Positions 2,251-24,137 of a stretch of DNA of 26,091 nt are shown piece after piece (within the stretch, counting starts at the first letter, position 1; each line of letters starts with the position of its first letter). The stretch is from a virus: positions 1-26,091 of the IMG/VR virus record IMGVR_UViG_3300031963_000825. One strand, 5' to 3'. Below the pieces are notes generated by a model. The model was not told the DNA's origin and did not search any database. It saw nothing but the letters and a program-made list of their open reading frames with translations. A program made the position numbers and the translations under genes.

Positions 2251-3531
2251 TTATGCTCCCATCAAGAGGAATACGGTTGCTGTTGGGTCGGTGGTGATTG
2301 CTGCCCACGAAGCGGTAGTTCCGTCCGTAGTCAAGTACTTGCCATTGTTACCTGTCTGGCTAGGTAGGCTTACTGGTGCTGCAGCCCATTGGACTCCATA
2401 GGTTGCCGTTGATGCAGCAGTAAGAATTTGTCCGTCGCTACCTACACCAAGACGAGCTGCGGTATCTGCAGCGCTGGCAACAATCAAGTCACCCTTAGCA
2501 TCGAAGATGGTTGCTTGGATAGCAGAGGCAGCCTGTGAGGCAGCAGCACTAGCAGAGTTGGCAGAGACGAGGGCAGATGCTGCGGATGTAGAAGCTGCGG
2601 TAGCAGAAGCAGCAGCACTAGCAGCGCTTGTCGATGCAGCGGTAGCAGAAGCTTGAGTCGCGGAGACCGAAGCATCAGCCGAGGTAGCACTCACAGCGGC
2701 AGAGGCAGCAGAAGTAGAGGCAGCAACAGCCGAAGCCGAGGCGCTGGCTGCCGAGGTGCTAGCAGCGATTGCAGAGGTGTTTGCTGCTATCTGGGATACG
2801 GAAGCACTGGCTGCGCTTGTAGAGGCTGCTATGGCGCTTACAGAGGCGCTAGCGGCACTTGTAGCAGCTTGGCTAGCCGACAAGGCTGCAGAAGCAGCTG
2901 AGGTTTGAGCGTTAGTCAATGGACCAAAGAATGCGTCTACATAGTCCTTTGGGGTAGCCGAGGATGTGACCATACTTGCAGAGGAAAGACCGGTGATGGT
3001 TCCACCCGAGACGACGATATGCCCTGACACTGTAGCGGTAGCAGATACCGTCACGGCTCCGGCGATGGTGCCACCGTTGATGGTTGGGGCAGTGAGAGTC
3101 TTCTGGGTTAGCGTTTGAGTCTTGTCAGTACCGACGACAACGCCTTCTCCAGCACCAATGCCGTGCATTGTGTGAGCATTACCACTGCCATCGTTGTAAG
3201 AGGCATCAGCTTCTGCGTGAAGGTTAGCATCACGATAATCTCTACCGATAGCCATATGGCGAACAACCGCACCAGCTGAGTGGTTTTGACCAGTAGAACC
3301 GTCGATACCACGAGTGATCGTAAACGTATTTGTGGAGACAAGCGTCGCATCGACAATCTCCTCAAGGGCTGTGTCGGGATCGATAACAAGGGTGAAGGTT
3401 CGTCCTGCTGGGATAGTGACACCACCAAGGAGTGCCGTACCCGAGACGACTGTAATGGAGCTCGCACCAGAAGTCACTGAACCTGTCAGTGTCGACTGCT
3501 GAGAACGGGAGGAGTATTGGCGTGTTGTCAT
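2251..3531 (-). CDS. Tail fibre with long Ala/Ser stalk
   Basis: This is a 426-residue fibre protein. Residues about 1-95 form a beta-rich N-terminal domain (SSITVVSG, FTLVIDPDT, FTITRGIDGST) of the kind that attaches a fibre to the tail. Residues 144-153 contain KTLTAPTING, a motif common in phage fibres. Residues about 209-341 are almost entirely Ala and Ser, with repeats of the ASTSAASAS type, matching the extended trimeric stalks seen in lambdoid side-tail fibres. The C-terminal part has the recurrent fibre segments KGDLIVASAADTAARLGVG (about 346-364) and TGNNGKYLTTDGT (about 394-406). No chaperone or enzyme domain is visible. The receptor-binding tip may be supplied by the small beta proteins encoded just downstream. 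Confidence 0.85.
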   Translation of the reverse strand: MTTRQYSSRSQQSTLTGSVTSGASSITVVSGTALLGGVTIPAGRTFTLVIDPDTALEEIVDATLVSTNTFTITRGIDGSTGQNHSAGAVVRHMAIGRDYRDANLHAEADASYNDGSGNAHTMHGIGAGEGVVVGTDKTQTLTQKTLTAPTINGGTIAGAVTVSATATVSGHIVVSGGTITGLSSASMVTSSATPKDYVDAFFGPLTNAQTSAASAALSASQAATSAASASVSAIAASTSAASASVSQIAANTSAIAASTSAASASASAVAASTSAASAAVSATSADASVSATQASATAASTSAASAAASATAASTSAASALVSANSASAAASQAASAIQATIFDAKGDLIVASAADTAARLGVGSDGQILTAASTATYGVQWAAAPVSLPSQTGNNGKYLTTDGTTASWAAITTDPTATVFLLMGA

Positions 3532-18286: not shown

Positions 18287-20152
18287 CTATCCGTATACTT
18301 GGGACCACTGCTCAGCGAAAGCTTCTTCGAGGTTGATAGACCCTCGTTGTGCCTTCTGCTGTCTAGTAGTCCAGCGATTGTTCATCCACCTTGACACCTG
18401 TGACCCCATCTGCATCATCTCGCGGATGCGGATGATAGCAAACCAGAGAGCCATCACGGTATCGGTTGGGTTTCTCGTGTCAGCTTTCCAGGTGATCAGT
18501 TGCTGGACGAGGGTCTTGAGACCTTCAGATCCTTCGTTGGAAGGAAGCTCGATTATGTTGTTGTCTTGGAATCGTCCGTCACGAAGAGTCCCGAAAAGCA
18601 TTGCCATAGAAGCGACACCAAAACTAGTGTCCCACTTATTCTTACCAGTAAAGTGAGAACCCAGCGAGCAGCCGTGAGCAGCGAGCCAATTGCGGAGATC
18701 GTCGTCCAGAGCGTATGCTTTCTGGTGTGCGTTGATCTCAATGCGCAACTCCTGTGGTCGGTATCGCTGCACCCAATCCTCGATCAGGTTGCGAATCTTT
18801 TGTGGGCTAGGCTCGGTCATATTGACTGCGTCGAGGACATAGATCTTGCCGTCGACCTTGTTGTAGGTAGCCACGACTGCACCTGTGGCACCAGCCATTG
18901 CTGGGTCAAGACCTATAACGGTAAAGCCCTCAACAGACTTTGGGTGACCAGCAGCGCCAGACTTGAGCGGTCCGCGCTTTCGCATTCCGTTGACCGAACC
19001 TGCGATGCAGGCTGGGGCAAAGATCGAATCTTCTTGGACGTCCTCTTGTTGGTAGACCATTGCCCAGACAGAAGGCGCCACTTCGCTTCGTCGAGTGAAG
19101 AGAGACGGTCCATCCCACTTGGGGTAGAGTCCTTGTTCATTCGCTTCATCGATGTCGCCTTCGGGCCTATCAGTCCAGGGCCAGAGGGTTTTCCAGTTGG
19201 CTGGCTTCTCGTCGAACTCCAACACCGCTGGCATCGCCATATAGGTGAATGGGCTCTTACCGCCAGTCCATTGACCGCCGTCCCGGATCATCTTGTATAA
19301 ATCTATGGGAGCGACACGGGTTCCTACTACAAGCAGTTTTCCGTGCCGTCCCAGACGGGTGATGACTTCTTTTTGAAGCCATTCAATTTGCTTCTCCCAC
19401 TCGTGGGCATTTGCGTTCATCACCACATCGTCGAGGATAATCAGATCGGCGCGAGCACCATAGATCTGAGATCCAAAACCAAGAGCTTGGACCGTAGGGT
19501 CCTTTTCGCCTGAGTCACGTCCTGTACCCAGGTAGATCATATCTGCCGACCAAGTGTTGCTGTCAGCCTTGTAGCCACCCTGGGGTCCGAAGGACACCTG
19601 TAGCTTAGTCCAGTTCGGATGGCTAAGCCTGGTCTTGATTGCCGAGAGGAACTTGCGAGCCATACCCTGGGTCTTAGAAACAATAATGATTCGGACGTTG
19701 GGGTCTGTCGCAATCCGGTAGGTCACGTAGTTGATTGTGATGACCGTCGACTTGGCGTGCTCGGGTGGGACGTTGATCAGGACTCGGTTGGGGTTGGATA
19801 CCTCGTAGGTCATCGCCGGGTGGGTGAAGCGTGGCTCCCTACCCTCAATCAGGTCGACCCAGGAGAGGTGGTGGTCGAAGAGTTTGGTCTCTAGGAACTG
19901 CTCGGAGAAGTCCTCGAAGGAGATATCCTTCAGGGCGCTCAGGTCAGCCTTGACACCCTTACCTTCAAGCCGAGCTTTATCGGCTGCTGCCTTGAACTCG
20001 GCGTTAGCCATTGACCATTGGCGGAAGGTGACGTCATTTCGCCCTACAGCCCTCATCGCATCGATGATGGTCGCCCCATTGGCTAGGAGCTCGAGGACCT
20101 GCTTCTGGGCCACATCCTTGGGGATGTCCTGTTTTCCTGGCTTACGCCCCAT
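18287..20152 (-). CDS. terL: Terminase large subunit with N-terminal HTH
   Basis: This 621-residue motor-nuclease packages DNA into the prohead. The ATPase shows a variant Walker A (VPPEHAKST, 128-136), a Walker B (LIILDD, 237-242) and a coupling motif (VVGTR, about 275-279). The nuclease shows the three acidic positions of the RNase H-like fold: D416 in VIGLDPA, E472 in RIEIN and D564 in PTDTVMALW. Residues about 16-60 form a helix-turn-helix (VLELLANGATIIDAMRAVG) of the kind found in terminase small subunits, and no separate small-subunit gene is visible in the window. The gene heads the late operon, after the 1-kb control region. Start ATG at 20152, preceded by GGGGA. Confidence 0.93.
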   Translation of the reverse strand: MGRKPGKQDIPKDVAQKQVLELLANGATIIDAMRAVGRNDVTFRQWSMANAEFKAAADKARLEGKGVKADLSALKDISFEDFSEQFLETKLFDHHLSWVDLIEGREPRFTHPAMTYEVSNPNRVLINVPPEHAKSTVITINYVTYRIATDPNVRIIIVSKTQGMARKFLSAIKTRLSHPNWTKLQVSFGPQGGYKADSNTWSADMIYLGTGRDSGEKDPTVQALGFGSQIYGARADLIILDDVVMNANAHEWEKQIEWLQKEVITRLGRHGKLLVVGTRVAPIDLYKMIRDGGQWTGGKSPFTYMAMPAVLEFDEKPANWKTLWPWTDRPEGDIDEANEQGLYPKWDGPSLFTRRSEVAPSVWAMVYQQEDVQEDSIFAPACIAGSVNGMRKRGPLKSGAAGHPKSVEGFTVIGLDPAMAGATGAVVATYNKVDGKIYVLDAVNMTEPSPQKIRNLIEDWVQRYRPQELRIEINAHQKAYALDDDLRNWLAAHGCSLGSHFTGKNKWDTSFGVASMAMLFGTLRDGRFQDNNIIELPSNEGSEGLKTLVQQLITWKADTRNPTDTVMALWFAIIRIREMMQMGSQVSRWMNNRWTTRQQKAQRGSINLEEAFAEQWSQVYG

Positions 20153-20210
20153 CAGTTATCCCCATTCAGAAAACGATCATATATCGGTGCCGTGAAACGG
20201 CATAGTCCCC

Positions 20211-20312
20211 CCATATATAGTTATATATTATATATATTATATAGGAGCTTGCGTAGTCCAGAACGGAGCAAGCTCCGTATATGGAATATAAAATATATTA
20301 CATATAAGATAA
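20211..20312. repeat. AT-rich blocks flanking a 9-bp inverted repeat
   Basis: Two almost pure A/T stretches (about 20211-20243 and 20277-20312) enclose a perfect inverted repeat, GGAGCTTGC (20244-20252) and GCAAGCTCC (20268-20276), with a 15-nt loop. The outer bases can extend the pairing weakly (TATA with GTATA). GC-rich cruciform arms inside AT-rich DNA are a common form of phage origin or of a strong operator. It lies 90-125 bp upstream of terminase. Confidence 0.55.
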
Positions 20313-20321
20313 CCTGTGCAA
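20292..20321 (-). promoter_or_regulatory. Candidate late promoter
   Basis: On the minus strand TTGCAC (20316-20321) is followed after 18 bp by TATATT (20292-20297), reading toward terminase. A second -10-like TATAAT lies nearer the gene (20236-20241) but has only a weak TTCTGG at -35. In such AT-rich DNA -10 matches are cheap, so this is a candidate only. Confidence 0.35.
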
Positions 20322-20363
20322 ATCGCAAAAACGCACACTTTAGACTGAACTATTTTTAGAATA

Positions 20364-20378
20364 ACCCCCGAAGGGGGT
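20364..20378. terminator. GC-rich hairpin, possible insulator
   Basis: ACCCCC and GGGGGT form a 6-bp stem with a GAA loop. On the minus strand the following bases are TATTCT, only weakly U-rich; on the plus strand AAAACC follows. It may stop stray transcripts between the divergent arms or serve as a protein site. Terminator function is not clear. Confidence 0.3.
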
Positions 20379-20530
20379 AAAACCGCAGGTCAGAAGCTAT
20401 ATATAGCCCCCCTGATATAACAGAAATATTTGGGTTGACTATATACATAATATACAAGCGCGATTTATAAAGCCTCGGGTCGAACCCTCGACCTCTACTA
20501 GAGGGTTAGACTCAGGAAGTTCCCAGGATT

Positions 20531-20843
20531 CTCTCAGTATTCTTTCGGTTAGGGCATATAGTAATAAACGGACATTAGGTAAAAGTCGGATATGTCGCAT
20601 AAGTCGTATTGATGGAAGGCTCGACTATCTCCCCAGACAATTCTCAGGAATCTCTCAGCCCCCTCTCAGCATATTAGAACATCTGTTCGATAGGGTCGAT
20701 AGTGTGACCTGCGTCTCACTTTCCCGTTACCTATTGACTCTCGCCCGGAAGTGTGGTAGGTGTCCGTTTTGCCCTTATTCGTCCGTTTTGTCTACTGTCA
20801 ATAGCGACACGCCCAGATTCCAAGATTCTAGGCAGACTCTCAG
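20531..20843 (+). repeat. CTCTCAG repeats, three copies in 11-bp phase
   Basis: CTCTCAG occurs at 20531, 20652, 20663 and 20837, and TTCTCAG at 20641, all on the plus strand. The three in the middle place TCTCAG at 20642, 20653 and 20664, exactly 11 bp apart, so they lie on one face of the helix. This is the arrangement expected for iterons or cooperative operator sites. Confidence 0.45.
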
Positions 20844-21130
20844 GTTCCGTTCACCTAATGTTCATCTTGCTGAGCGTGGATTCGATTAGGTGATTCGAAG
20901 GGTTCGGGTTTACACTTCGGGTTATCGGTTGGAAGAACCACCGGTGAGAGTGACCGAAGCGGGCAATCCGCGTGAACTAGGTCTGAATCCTCAATCCGGT
21001 CAGATTGTCACCGAAGATTCACGAACCGGGTTCACATCGTAGTCGCAAAGCGTGGATGCCCTAGACCAAGCGCCGAAAGTGTCGATTCTCTCCCATAGTA
21101 AGTGATTCGCCTAGTTGTTTATAAGTAGGT

Positions 21131-21200
21131 TCGGGAGGGTTCGATTCCCTCCCGGACTACTGCCGGAAGGTATCCGGTGAAACTAGGTTAGGGGTTAGAT
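21131..21200 (+). promoter_or_regulatory. Structured 5' leader, copy 1 (T-arm-like)
   Basis: Hairpin 1 pairs TTCGGGAGGG with CCCTCCCGGA around the 7-base loop TTCGATT, the sequence of a tRNA T-arm. Hairpin 2 pairs CCGGA (21163-21167) with TCCGG (21173-21177) around a 5-base loop. A conserved block follows (21182-21200), containing AGGGG as ribosome-binding site, and ends at the ATG of the 97-residue gene. The shared 14-mer GGGTTCGATTCCCT starts 64 bp before the ATG. No full tRNA can be folded here. Copy 2 precedes the next gene. Confidence 0.6.
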
Positions 21201-21494
21201 ATGACGGTTGCCACGATTAGAGAAGTTCGCTCAACCGCGAGAGGGAGACACTCGCTCGCCACGCGAACACGCTCACAACGGACACGCTATGACTTCCCGG
21301 TAACAATTACCGATAAGTCCGGCAAGGTTCGGGTAGTATCCGGGGAAGTGGTTCGACCTAAGCGTGGTCGCAAGGGTCGCACTAGTAAGAATCGCAAGGT
21401 TGCCTACCGCCTAAGCGCACAACGCGTGAAGGGTTCGGGCGATACCTTCGATGCGCGAGTGATGCGCGAAATAGGTACGATTCACCAAGATTAG
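21201..21494 (+). CDS. Small basic protein of unknown function
   Basis: This 97-residue protein is the first gene of the rightward arm. The ATG follows AGGGG by 6 bp. The product is rich in Arg, Lys, Ser and Thr, with a basic N-terminus (STARGRHSLATRTRSQRTR), a beta-like segment (YDFPVTITDKSGKVRVVSGEVV, about 30-51) and a very basic centre (RPKRGRKGRTSKNRKVAYRL). The last 25 residues are mixed. It may bind nucleic acid, as many first early phage proteins do, but no family is recognised. It is controlled by a structured leader shared with the next gene, which suggests the two are regulated together. Confidence 0.7.
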   Translation: MTVATIREVRSTARGRHSLATRTRSQRTRYDFPVTITDKSGKVRVVSGEVVRPKRGRKGRTSKNRKVAYRLSAQRVKGSGDTFDARVMREIGTIHQD

Positions 21495-21503
21495 AGCAAG
21501 GTA

Positions 21504-21587
21504 GGCGTGAAGGGTTCACGCAGGGTTCGATTCCCTGCCACGCCACGCACTAGCGATACACGCTAGGCACTAGGTTAGGGGCTTGAT
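21504..21587 (+). promoter_or_regulatory. Structured 5' leader, copy 2 (T-arm-like)
   Basis: The same layout as copy 1. GCAGGG and CCCTGC enclose the loop TTCGATT (14-mer at 21523-21536, 65 bp before the ATG). Hairpin 2 pairs CTAGCG (21550-21555) with CGCTAG (21561-21566) around a 5-base loop. The block at 21569-21587 matches copy 1 at 17 of 19 bases. In addition GGCGTG (21504-21509) can pair with CACGCC (21539-21544), giving a 42-nt acceptor/T-arm minihelix, or CGTGAA (21506-21511) can pair with TTCACG (21515-21520); the two folds exclude each other. Confidence 0.62.
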
Positions 21588-21911
21588 ATGAGTAGTAACT
21601 ATCAAGGATGGTCTAATCAAGAGACTTGGGCGATGGCGCTACATATGGCGAATGACTCAGGACTCAATGAACACTCGCTAGGCTATGCCGGTGCGGAACT
21701 TGAGAACTACCCTAATGATGGTGATTCGGTGAACATCGAACACCTAGCCGAAACCCTTCGGCATTGGATAGAGGAAAGCATCTTCTCCTATGAGAATGTG
21801 AAAGCAAGCCGATATGTGTACGCTATACTTCTCGATGTGGGGTCACTATGGAAGATCGACTACCGCGAGATAGCCGAAAGCCTTATCAACCGAGTGAAAG
21901 AGGGGGAATAA
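21588..21911 (+). CDS. Small phage protein with YxGWxNxETW motif
   Basis: This 107-residue protein begins MSSNYQGWSNQETWAMALHMAND. That opening (Y-x-GW-x-N-x-ETW, then a helix ending in ND) is the signature of a family of short proteins found widely in phages, probably the DUF7249-like group; I am recalling the motif, not a database hit. The rest is helical (HLAETLRHWIEESIFSYE, YAILLDVGSLWKIDYREIAESLINRV). No function is established. The ATG follows the second copy of the structured leader, with AGGGG upstream. It is 2 bp from the following gene. Confidence 0.74.
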   Translation: MSSNYQGWSNQETWAMALHMANDSGLNEHSLGYAGAELENYPNDGDSVNIEHLAETLRHWIEESIFSYENVKASRYVYAILLDVGSLWKIDYREIAESLINRVKEGE

Positions 21912-21913
21912 GT

Positions 21914-22099
21914 ATGAGCGAGAACCTATTACTAGACCTTACCGAAACCGAGGTCGAAGTGATGCGCCAAGCATTACGCCATCACATCGAACACTACAAG
22001 CGAAACGATTTCCGAATCCTAGCGAACCGGACGGGAGACTTGCTCAACAAGGTCAATGACGCTATCATCGACTCCAAGCGAGAGAAGGAGAGAATATGA
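21914..22099 (+). CDS. 61-residue helical protein, unknown
   Basis: Read from the ATG at 21914, 2 bp after the previous stop and behind a GGGGG site; a longer in-frame extension upstream lies inside the previous gene and is unlikely. The product begins MSENLLLDLTETEVEVMRQAL and is predicted to be two helices with conserved-looking LRHHIEHYKRNDFRIL in the middle and a basic end (DSKREKERI). It ends in ATGA with the amidoligase gene, so translation of the two is coupled. It may be an accessory of the downstream enzymes, but nothing in the sequence shows this. Confidence 0.68.
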   Translation: MSENLLLDLTETEVEVMRQALRHHIEHYKRNDFRILANRTGDLLNKVNDAIIDSKREKERI

Positions 22100-23289
22100 C
22101 CGATGAAGTGAACTACGAGTGCGCTAGTTGCGGATGGATTACCGCGCATCGTGACCAACTCTACGAGATAGGCGAGTCGCTCTATTGCGACACTTGCTCA
22201 AGGGTATGTGACCGATGTGGTGACCGAACCGGCGAGGATTTCTACTTCATCGAGGGCATCGAGGAATCGTGGTGCGAAGAGTGCGCTATGGATAACTCGA
22301 CCTATTGCGACAACTGCGATGCTCGCTATCACGATAGTCGGGTGTCCTTCTATACCCTCAACGACACCGATGAGTCGATGTGCGAGTATTGCGCCAGCAA
22401 TAATCACTCGTGGTGCGATGACCACAATGTGTACTATAACGCCGAGTGTTGCGAGTGTGAGTCTGACCCTCGCTCAAGCATCCACGATTACTCCTATAAG
22501 CCAGACCCGGAGTTCATCGGTACCGACAAGCACAACCTATACTTCGGCATCGAAGTTGAGACGGAAGTATGGGGAGACTTAGGGGAAGCGGCAAGAGCGA
22601 TAGGTATGGAGACATCCTTCTATCTCAAGAATGATTCATCCATCGGTGCTAACACCAAGCGTAGGGGATTCGAGGTTGTCTCTCATCCTCACACGCTTGA
22701 TGCGTGGATGTCTCCCGATAACCCGATGCTTCGCTACCTTGAGGACATCCGGCGCAACTTCACCGCTAGGTCTTGGGATGCTGAGTCCTCGTGTGGATTA
22801 CACATCCACATATCACGCGCCGGGTTCGGTTCCGGTGCTCATACTCATCGGTTCCTCTCGCTCGTGTACTCCAACGCTATCGAGATGTCTAAGTTAGGTG
22901 GTCGCAAGGGTAGTAGTTACGCCAAGTTCTCGGATGTGTACAAGTTCGACGATTACGGCAGACCTTACCGAGACTTCCGCGACAAGATTCACAATAGCCG
23001 GATGACCGAGCGATATAGCGCGGTCAATACTCTCAACCGAGAGACACTAGAGTTGCGATGGTTCCAAGGTACGCTCAAGCGTGACGGAATCCTCGCCAAC
23101 ATCCAACTCGCTCACGCTATGGTGGAGTACACACGCTACATCACAGTAGCGCAAGTGCGAGAAGGTGCTTTGCGTTGGGATCGATTCGCTCATTGGGTCG
23201 CTAGTATGGGTACATATCCACAACTAGCCGACAAGATAGCGCGACTCGATGCTGTCTCACTATCCATCAAGCCGACACTCAATGCCTAG
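22096..23289 (+). CDS. Amidoligase-family enzyme with Cys-rich N-terminus
   Basis: This 397-residue protein has two parts. Residues 1-125 contain 16 Cys, most as CxxC pairs (9/12, 31/34, 38/41, 60/63, 71/74, 96/99), so a run of zinc-binding knuckles is likely. Residues about 145-397 carry the marks of Amidoligase_2, a glutamine-synthetase-like COOH-NH2 ligase: YFGIEVETE (149-157) with metal-binding Glu, KNDSSIG (178-184), FEVVSHP (192-198), CGLHIHIS (233-240), ERYSAVN (305-311) and TLELRWFQGTL (317-327). The family uses ATP to join a carboxylate and an amine, giving peptide-like or gamma-glutamyl bonds; this enzyme's substrate is unknown. It overlaps the previous gene by ATGA and is followed by an amidotransferase, which could supply ammonia. 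Confidence 0.84.
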   Translation: MTDEVNYECASCGWITAHRDQLYEIGESLYCDTCSRVCDRCGDRTGEDFYFIEGIEESWCEECAMDNSTYCDNCDARYHDSRVSFYTLNDTDESMCEYCASNNHSWCDDHNVYYNAECCECESDPRSSIHDYSYKPDPEFIGTDKHNLYFGIEVETEVWGDLGEAARAIGMETSFYLKNDSSIGANTKRRGFEVVSHPHTLDAWMSPDNPMLRYLEDIRRNFTARSWDAESSCGLHIHISRAGFGSGAHTHRFLSLVYSNAIEMSKLGGRKGSSYAKFSDVYKFDDYGRPYRDFRDKIHNSRMTERYSAVNTLNRETLELRWFQGTLKRDGILANIQLAHAMVEYTRYITVAQVREGALRWDRFAHWVASMGTYPQLADKIARLDAVSLSIKPTLNA

Positions 23290-23300
23290 GGGGTAATGAT

Positions 23301-24137
23301 ATGTGTCTACTAGTTGTCTGTTCGCCGGGTTCTATACCGGACAGAGCAGACCTTGAGCGTGGTGCGTGTGCTAATCCACACGGCTACGGCTTCGCTATGA
23401 TTATCGGTGGCAAGGTTCATCGCTACCGAACTATGTCTCGTAAGAAAGCGGTCAATAAATTCTTAGAGATGCGTACCCTTCATCCCGAAGGACACGCTAT
23501 ATGGCACGCTCGATACGCCACGCACGGCGTGAAGAATGAAGCCAACTGCCATCCATTCCAAGTCGGAAGCGATGAGGATACTGTCCTCGCCCACAACGGA
23601 GTCCTCGATACTCACATCGAGCCGGGTGATAGGCGTAGCGACACTCGCATATTCGCTGAGGATACGCTTCCCACACTCGGTGGCGTGACGGCTCTCGACA
23701 ACGAGAACCTATACATCCTCGTATCCAAGTGGGCTAGGGGTAGCAAGATAGCCGTACTCACGACCAACCCTCTCGCCAAGCACGAGTGCTACATCATCAA
23801 CGAGGATGCCGGTGCGTGGGATGACAACGGTATATGGTGGTCGAACGAATCGTACAAGCCGGTCGAGAAGAAGTATCCGACTTATAGTTACGGATCAATG
23901 TGGTCGAACGCTAGTGGTCACAAGCCACAAGACTTAGGTTCCCTCGCCTATGACGAGATATGGGATGCCTATGTAGATGAGCAAGGATTCCTCCTCGCTG
24001 AGTGTCCTAACTGCCAACAACTATCGACCTATGAAAGCCACACCTGCGAGCATTGTACGCTATGCTACGACTGCTCAATGGTAGAGAGCGAGTGCTTGTG
24101 CTATGTGCCAAGCAAGAGCCGACACATCGGCTATTAG
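23301..24137 (+). CDS. Class II glutamine amidotransferase with C-terminal Cys cluster
   Basis: This 278-residue protein starts MC, giving the N-terminal Cys2 nucleophile once Met is removed. Other class II (Ntn-type) features are NPHGYGFAM (25-33), WHARYATHG (68-76), CHPF (83-86), LAHNG (96-100) with the oxyanion-hole Asn-Gly, and RSDTRIF (112-118). The domain hydrolyses glutamine to release ammonia. The C-terminal residues 235-267 hold eight Cys, mostly in CxxC pairs (235/238, 249/252, 255/258), a probable zinc ribbon similar in style to the one on the amidoligase. The gene starts 11 bp after the amidoligase stop behind GGGGG. The two probably act on one substrate, with ammonia passed to the ligase or the product trimmed. 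Confidence 0.85.
   Translation: MCLLVVCSPGSIPDRADLERGACANPHGYGFAMIIGGKVHRYRTMSRKKAVNKFLEMRTLHPEGHAIWHARYATHGVKNEANCHPFQVGSDEDTVLAHNGVLDTHIEPGDRRSDTRIFAEDTLPTLGGVTALDNENLYILVSKWARGSKIAVLTTNPLAKHECYIINEDAGAWDDNGIWWSNESYKPVEKKYPTYSYGSMWSNASGHKPQDLGSLAYDEIWDAYVDEQGFLLAECPNCQQLSTYESHTCEHCTLCYDCSMVESECLCYVPSKSRHIGY

Follow-up and report, generated by a model that had tools for sequence, protein, structure and literature searches.

Why should two small early genes of a bacterial virus each be preceded by a hairpin that resembles the T-arm of a tRNA? The window, that is, the whole stretch of 26,091 bases analysed here, is a caudovirus record with the TerL, portal and capsid genes on the minus strand; beginning at about 21.2 kb, the plus strand carries small early genes, whose products include DUF7249-like, amidoligase-like, glutamine-amidotransferase-like and WhiB-like proteins. 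The two genes in question are p1 (21201–21494, plus strand), encoding a basic protein of 97 aa without a family assignment in Pfam or PHROGs at E 0.01, and p2 (21588–21911, plus strand), encoding a 107-aa protein whose N-terminus matches DUF7249 with 25.5 bits, just under the Pfam cut-off of 27. Farther into the early region (22096–24137), an amidoligase-like protein adjoins a class-II glutamine-amidotransferase-like protein, and the order of the homologues is kept in many relatives. The stretch from TerL to the first leader (20154–21120) has no large ORF and is presumably the home of divergent promoters; no convincing sigma70-like site was found in it or near the two leaders. Profile scans of nine window proteins (Pfam, PHROGs) revealed no integrase. 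Searching the region's DNA against phage records gave no match, and the TerL search of genome contigs found no relative.

Two tRNA-top-half elements in the window

The sequence-only reading had proposed two leaders with the same order of parts, and the sequence bears this out. The 14-mer GGGTTCGATTCCCT occurs at 21137–21150 and 21523–21536, 64 and 65 bp upstream of the ATGs at 21201 and 21588, which are spaced 387 bp apart, and the block ACTAGGTTAGGGGYTWGAT stands directly 5' of each ATG. When GGGTTCGATTCCC was searched with at most two mismatches, four sites were obtained in the window (two of them exact), while shuffled sequences gave a mean of 0.49 and reached four in 0/100.

Both leaders hold more than a T-arm. 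Copy 1 (21128–21160, plus strand), identified by sequence, fold and a descriptor match and by a sister copy with compensatory changes in the related locus L005, has the acceptor GGTTCGG/CCGGACT (21128–21134 with 21152–21158, including two G-T pairs), the T-stem GAGGG/CCCTC (21135–21139 with 21147–21151), the T-loop TTCGATT (21140–21146), A73 at 21159 and C74 at 21160. The insert is absent, so that the acceptor stacks straight on the T-stem. Copy 2 (21504–21546, plus strand), identified by sequence, fold and the wide scan described below and matched at E 0.22 by a covariance model from which it was held out, has the acceptor GGCGTG/CACGCC (21504–21509 with 21539–21544), a 10-nt insert (21510–21519), the T-stem GCAGGG/CCCTGC (21520–21525 with 21533–21538), the same T-loop (21526–21532), A73 at 21545 and C74 at 21546. 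In both, 12 bp are stacked between the 7-nt loop and purine 73, which is the tRNA count of 5+7. The proposed mimicry of a T-arm therefore holds and extends to the acceptor. An acceptor/T-arm minihelix had been claimed for copy 2, and it is indeed there, but it is not special to that copy: because copy 1 too has a complete acceptor stem, both copies are 12-bp acceptor/T-arm minihelices. The cloverleaf of a tRNA gene is not formed, as the anticodon arm is absent and the inserts are 0 and 10 nt.

Each element is followed by a second hairpin and the shared block. After copy 1 the hairpin is GCCGGA-AGGTA-TCCGGT (21162–21178, plus strand), whose position and pairing are the same in relatives, and after copy 2, as found by sequence and hairpin comparison, it is CTAGCG-ATACA-CGCTAG (21550–21566, plus strand); the two cores that had been said to pair in spite of different letters (CCGGA-AGGTA-TCCGG in the former) do so. 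The repeated block then follows as ACTAGGTTAGGGGTTAGAT at 21182–21200 (plus strand), with a purine-rich, RBS-like AGGGG before p1, and as ACTAGGTTAGGGGCTTGAT at 21569–21587 (plus strand) before p2. The first base of copy 2 lies 9 nt past the p1 stop, and copy 1 has no ORF end close upstream among ORFs of at least 40 codons, as is also the case for the elements of two related loci (L071 and L252). An intrinsic terminator, with a GC-rich hairpin and a U run, does not coincide with either copy, since the sole terminator-like site in 20150–22150 lies elsewhere, on the minus strand. A sigma70 promoter as a part of every copy was considered and rejected, none being present near the window copies.

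Dimensions and distribution of the element

We then analysed relatives of the window, collected as TerL loci (80 kept of at least 597) and amidotransferase loci (52). Both kinds hold the same element with differing sequences: an acceptor plus T-stem stack of 12 bp, a 7-nt loop of T type, then purine 73 and C74, with the D and anticodon arms replaced by an insert of 0–21 nt. R73 and C74 were required in the first locus count and in the second-hairpin set, and were left unfiltered in the minihelix counts and in the wide scan. With a strict descriptor, the 44 regions upstream of TerL (window included) gave 17 matches on the early strand, three of which fall within the p4 gene, and none on the opposite strand, with a shuffle mean of 0.0. 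Minihelices with 12/12 pairs numbered 52 (33 distinct) in 134 related loci; the reversed sequence gave 2, altered loops gave 2, 7, 5 and 4, and three Markov-resampled sets gave 4 together. Allowing one mismatch made the descriptor far less specific (86 matches versus 31–44 in controls).

The wide scan, which of our tests speaks most strongly for tRNA mimicry, covered 137 sources. Its sole requirements were the loop YKCRNNN, a minimum of 11 pairs and the stop of an ORF of at least 28 codons within 15 nt upstream; the helix length above that minimum and the flanking letters were left free. It gave 54 distinct stop-linked matches. From the loop to the end of the helix, 42 of them measure 12 nt, 10 measure 11 nt, one 14 nt and one 15 nt. 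Among the 52 matches of 11–12 nt, residue 73 is always a purine (48 A, 4 G) and residue 74 is C in all 52. No match has C at residue 75, which is G in 38, T in 13 and A in one; residue 1 is G in 51/52 and residue −1 is A in 41/52. Four control loop patterns gave only 7, 3, 7 and 4 matches with lengths of 11 to 16, and R73-C74 appears in just one of these 21. The 52 matches are not 52 independent events, because many are mutually related; even so, the 38 filtered elements have 21 different outer strands. The stack of 12 bp with a 7-nt loop is the size of the minimal RNase P/RNase Z substrate, consisting of acceptor and T arm. The T-loop letters vary, and several loops are without A58 (TTCATGA, TTCACGA, CTCGCAA).

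The position is as constant as the size. In 49/52 matches the stem begins 5–11 nt past a stop codon, with 3 nt in one and 15 nt, the limit of the scan, in two; these 49 share the gene-border position of a mitochondrial t-element. The label of leader given by the sequence-only reading was thus half right: the elements do precede genes, but most copies stand a few nucleotides past a stop, at a gene junction. Throughout the relatives the module is tied more to the stop of the upstream gene than to the following ATG. In L005, where a 32-codon frame separates copy 2 from p2, copy 2 remains behind p1, so that the module follows the end of the upstream gene. By eye, the element follows a p1-like gene (DKSG motif, basic tail) in L011, L068 and others; elsewhere it follows another small gene. 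Readthrough of the stop codon was rejected by eye in view of the short extensions, the variable spacing and the presence of all three stops, UAA, UAG and UGA.

The second hairpin begins 1–8 nt after position 73. It has at least 4 bp in 37/38 elements (about 47% in shuffles) and at least 6 bp in 26/38 (about 5% in shuffles), this set being filtered on R73 and C74 and freed beforehand of three descriptor matches with the acceptor TGCTAC (L008, L009, L057) that lie within the p4 gene. Its letters change with the pairing intact, as in TGCCGTA-TAA-TACGGCA, TGTCATA-TAA-TATGACA and TGCTGTA-TAA-TACAGCA. Residues −1 and 73 are able to pair in just 3/38 elements. What comes downstream of it is the promoter TTGACT-17-TATACT in the GTCCTAG clade and otherwise an RBS and ATG. 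In L011, L068, L080 and L240–L246, the −35 box of the TTGACT-TATACT promoter lies within the second hairpin, and one stretch therefore serves as both RNA hairpin and DNA promoter.

We also looked for relatives that keep the genes without the stems. A stop-linked element lies between TerL and p3 or p4 in 47 of the 53 loci that hold both, some of which are two loci of one contig. At first 18/53 had appeared empty, because the first descriptor missed other T-loops, and the wider scan reduced these to six: in L071 and L252 no stop lies near the element, in L226 an element precedes p1, that of L220 is weak, that of L233 is doubtful and L083 has none. In L083 and L226, a plain 16-bp hairpin immediately follows the p1-like gene; its loop is 11 nt long and not a T-loop, and a second hairpin and RBS/ATG come after it. 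The 16-bp hairpin, standing where relatives have the tRNA half, may be a replacement cut site.

The element reaches beyond the nearest relatives. The viral contig L095 carries two copies whose parts are arranged in the same order, 7 nt past a stop, and none of its proteins matches those of the window of at least 90 aa; L133 has one element and its proteins are likewise unmatched. The tested pieces of both gave no match to phage records. In isolated phages, three elements are found near stops in E7 and two in F5, and the same scan gave no stop-linked match in T7, lambda or FlowerPower. Away from stops it gave chance-like matches, one in T7, one in lambda and four in FlowerPower, with two more in E7 and four more in F5. 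Phages E7 and F5 infect ‘Ca. Planktophila’ LanE-43 (PMC10202952), from which we infer that the host of the window is probably a related lake actinobacterium.

Two further arrangements were seen. On the reverse strand of the AT-rich L175 (IMGVR_UViG_3300031993_000103), at about 2400–3420, minihelices stand in a tandem cluster, of which the descriptor finds four and inspection by eye more. Their outer stems are 8 bp long (for example TAAGCATA/TATGCTTA), their loops read TTCGATT or TGCAAAT, and the cluster is another arrangement of anticodon-less tRNA-like units. At 1447–1600 of L126 (IMGVR_UViG_3300049137_000021), one minihelix is followed by two more T-arm-like hairpins in series.

Covariation of the paired positions

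That the RNA structure is under selection had been suggested from the two window copies, and the relatives corroborate it. Our alignment held 37 matches, 35 of them distinct and one partial and doubtful (L133). Pairing is present in 95.3% of the alignment cells, changes on both sides occur in 11/12 pairs, and 121/408 cells are doubly changed. The covariation score is 0.701, compared with 0.174 ± 0.020 for shuffled alignments, none of which (0/500) reached it, although the alignment had been made to fit the structure, a bias in its favour, and holds related sequences; this is the base-pair covariation sought for a minimal RNase P/RNase Z substrate. Sliding the partner by 1–3 columns lowered the score to 0.055–0.160. 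A measure of further pair types separated less clearly (30 versus 26.4, with 17/500 shuffles reaching 30). Pairing is complete (100%) in the outer helix, where each of the six pairs has double changes, and reaches 90.7% in the inner helix. One junction shows compensatory change between the isolated phages, with GCCCCCG/CGGGGGC and GAGG/CCTC in E7 and GCCACCG/CGGTGGC and GAGA/TCTC in F5.

Covariance models agree in part. Model R1 was built from four easy sequences, because MAFFT misaligned the elements, and gave only a partial match on the window (E 7). Model R2 was derived from 17 matches. It recovered the withheld E7 element (E 0.001) and copy 2 of the window (E 0.22); copy 1 was not among its matches up to E 5. 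Taking all of the above together, we are nearly certain that a conserved structured element sits at the gene junction.

Function of the element and known systems

What might such an element do? We lean, somewhat beyond an even balance and on sequence grounds, towards the reading that the early polycistronic mRNA carries the elements as punctuation sites at which host RNase Z and/or RNase P cleave. An encoded CCA inhibits RNase Z, whose cut falls after N73, and the absence of C75 fits this. Host RNase Z would cut after N73 and/or RNase P before G1, and through a cut between the minihelix and the second hairpin the upstream mRNA would gain a structured 3' end and the downstream mRNA a structured 5' end. 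The tRNA-like stem would close and protect the former and the second hairpin would cap the latter, so that each early gene, as we propose, would have its own stability and dose; the minihelix may also gain a CCA tail. The element itself reproduces the part of pre-tRNA that the maturation enzymes measure, including the paired G1. Against cleavage as punctuation stand several loops that are not true T-loops, being without A58; the plain 16-bp hairpin after p1 in L083 and L226; and the three elements (copy 1, L071, L252) that are not near an upstream stop of an ORF of at least 40 codons. Moreover, only C74 is kept of CCA, whereas RNase P prefers CCA, and residue −1 is mostly A, though U-1 is commonest in many bacteria, A-1 or G-1 prevailing in some (PMC11143913).

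The same parts could serve without any tRNA enzyme, as a structural insulator in which two stable hairpins past the stop protect ends or uncouple genes and the T-loop is merely a stable loop. The nearby second hairpin in 37/38 elements agrees with this, as do the variable T-loop letters and the hairpin without a T-loop that L083 and L226 have at the same place. We nevertheless hold insulation to be unlikely, though far from negligible, for it leaves unexplained the stack of 12, G1 (51/52), R73, C74 in 52/52 and the avoidance of C75, and residues −1 and 73 can pair in 3/38 only. A role in trans is also conceivable, with the element excised and CCA-tailed as a small RNA, for example a decoy that would occupy tRNA enzymes, EF-Tu or defences that cut tRNA. 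The features read by the CCA-adding enzyme, EF-Tu and tRNA nucleases are all present, E7 has three copies, and plant mitochondrial t-elements are CCA-tailed once released (PMC11658184). The tight linkage to the stop codon and the second hairpin indicates a role in cis, however, and copies within one genome differ in sequence, which makes a trans-acting mini-tRNA rather improbable.

The two readings that remain fare worse. Copy 2 had been thought able to switch between the minihelix and a competing hairpin, and a competing hairpin of 7 bp can indeed be drawn; at −13.5 versus −18.3 kcal/mol it is 4.8 kcal/mol weaker than the minihelix, it is impossible in copy 1 because that copy has no insert, and in L005 it shrinks from 7 to 5 bp (−9.4 versus −16.4 kcal/mol) while the minihelix pairing is kept. 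We therefore give an RNA switch very little credence. Scarcely any is left for a remnant of a tRNA gene or an attachment site copied from the 3' end of a host tRNA. An attP core commonly consists of the T-arm and the acceptor 3' end, which speaks for the attachment site, but here the 5' acceptor strand adjoins and covaries, which largely refutes this origin; in addition, there are many acceptor sequences and two or three copies per genome, and ARAGORN finds no tRNA gene in the window.

Punctuation by tRNA-processing enzymes is thus the reading that we carry forward. In its broadest form it would define a new class of viral RNA elements, junction mini-tRNAs without an anticodon, spread across a family of freshwater actinophages and sized like tRNA so that RNase P, RNase Z and the CCA-adding enzyme cut, trim and cap early mRNAs, a mitochondrial style of punctuation reached separately by phages; we regard this as an evenly balanced possibility. 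If it is true, a minimal tRNA half is a cut-here mark in phages whose hosts rank among the most abundant bacteria of lakes, a natural instance of minihelix substrates known hitherto from laboratory constructs, and a bacterial-virus counterpart to mitochondrial tRNA punctuation. The natural variants (insert of 0–21 nt, altered T-loops, fixed R73-C74) would then form a ready series on the requirements of RNase P and RNase Z, and two isolated phages with a cultured host make the idea testable now.

That no phage leader of this kind had been described, as the sequence-only reading supposed, agrees with Rfam and with the literature searched, which lay largely outside subscription journals and bioRxiv and gave no description of such elements in phages. 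At gathering cut-offs Rfam 15 reports nothing in the window and, in eight loci, one ordinary tRNA only, in L126. Under relaxed settings the best match of both window copies is mascRNA-menRNA (RF01684; E 0.042 and 0.19), with scores of 23.0 and 20.5 bits, below the gathering score of 42.5; both L095 copies have the same best sub-threshold match (E 0.0013 and 0.073), and of the three E7 elements, one had no match and two resembled other families weakly, in one case on the opposite strand. The mascRNA-menRNA family comprises tRNA-like elements at the 3' ends of MALAT1 and MEN beta that RNase P and RNase Z cleave. The likeness lies in a small tRNA-like cut signal, predicted in the phages, inside a longer transcript, but mascRNA and menRNA belong to eukaryotic long noncoding RNAs, while the phage element lies between genes and has a second hairpin. 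The RNase III sites of T7 early mRNA are also structured cuts between early genes that leave protected ends; the enzyme is different, the stems are much longer, and T7 itself has no stop-linked element in the scan.

RNase P has been described as measuring the T-arm/acceptor stack like a ruler (PMC4919913). E. coli RNase P RNA cleaves hairpins made of acceptor, T-stem and T-loop, pairing with residues 73–75 and stacking on G1-C72, and the layout of these substrates is exactly that of copy 1; they are constructs, whereas the phage elements are natural (PMC11143913). RNase P also acts on phage and operon RNAs, namely M3 RNA, C4 RNA, T4 gene 32 mRNA and polycistronic mRNAs, and the sections of that source consulted describe no conserved stop-linked family of tRNA halves in phage genomes (PMC11143913). 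By analogy, the nearest in role would be the t-elements of plant mitochondria, which are tRNA-like, stand at gene ends, are recognised by RNase P and RNase Z and set mRNA ends (PMC11658184). The t-elements are homologous to tRNA genes and have a typical tRNA-like structure, whereas the phage elements are built without an anticodon arm and occur in bacterial viruses.
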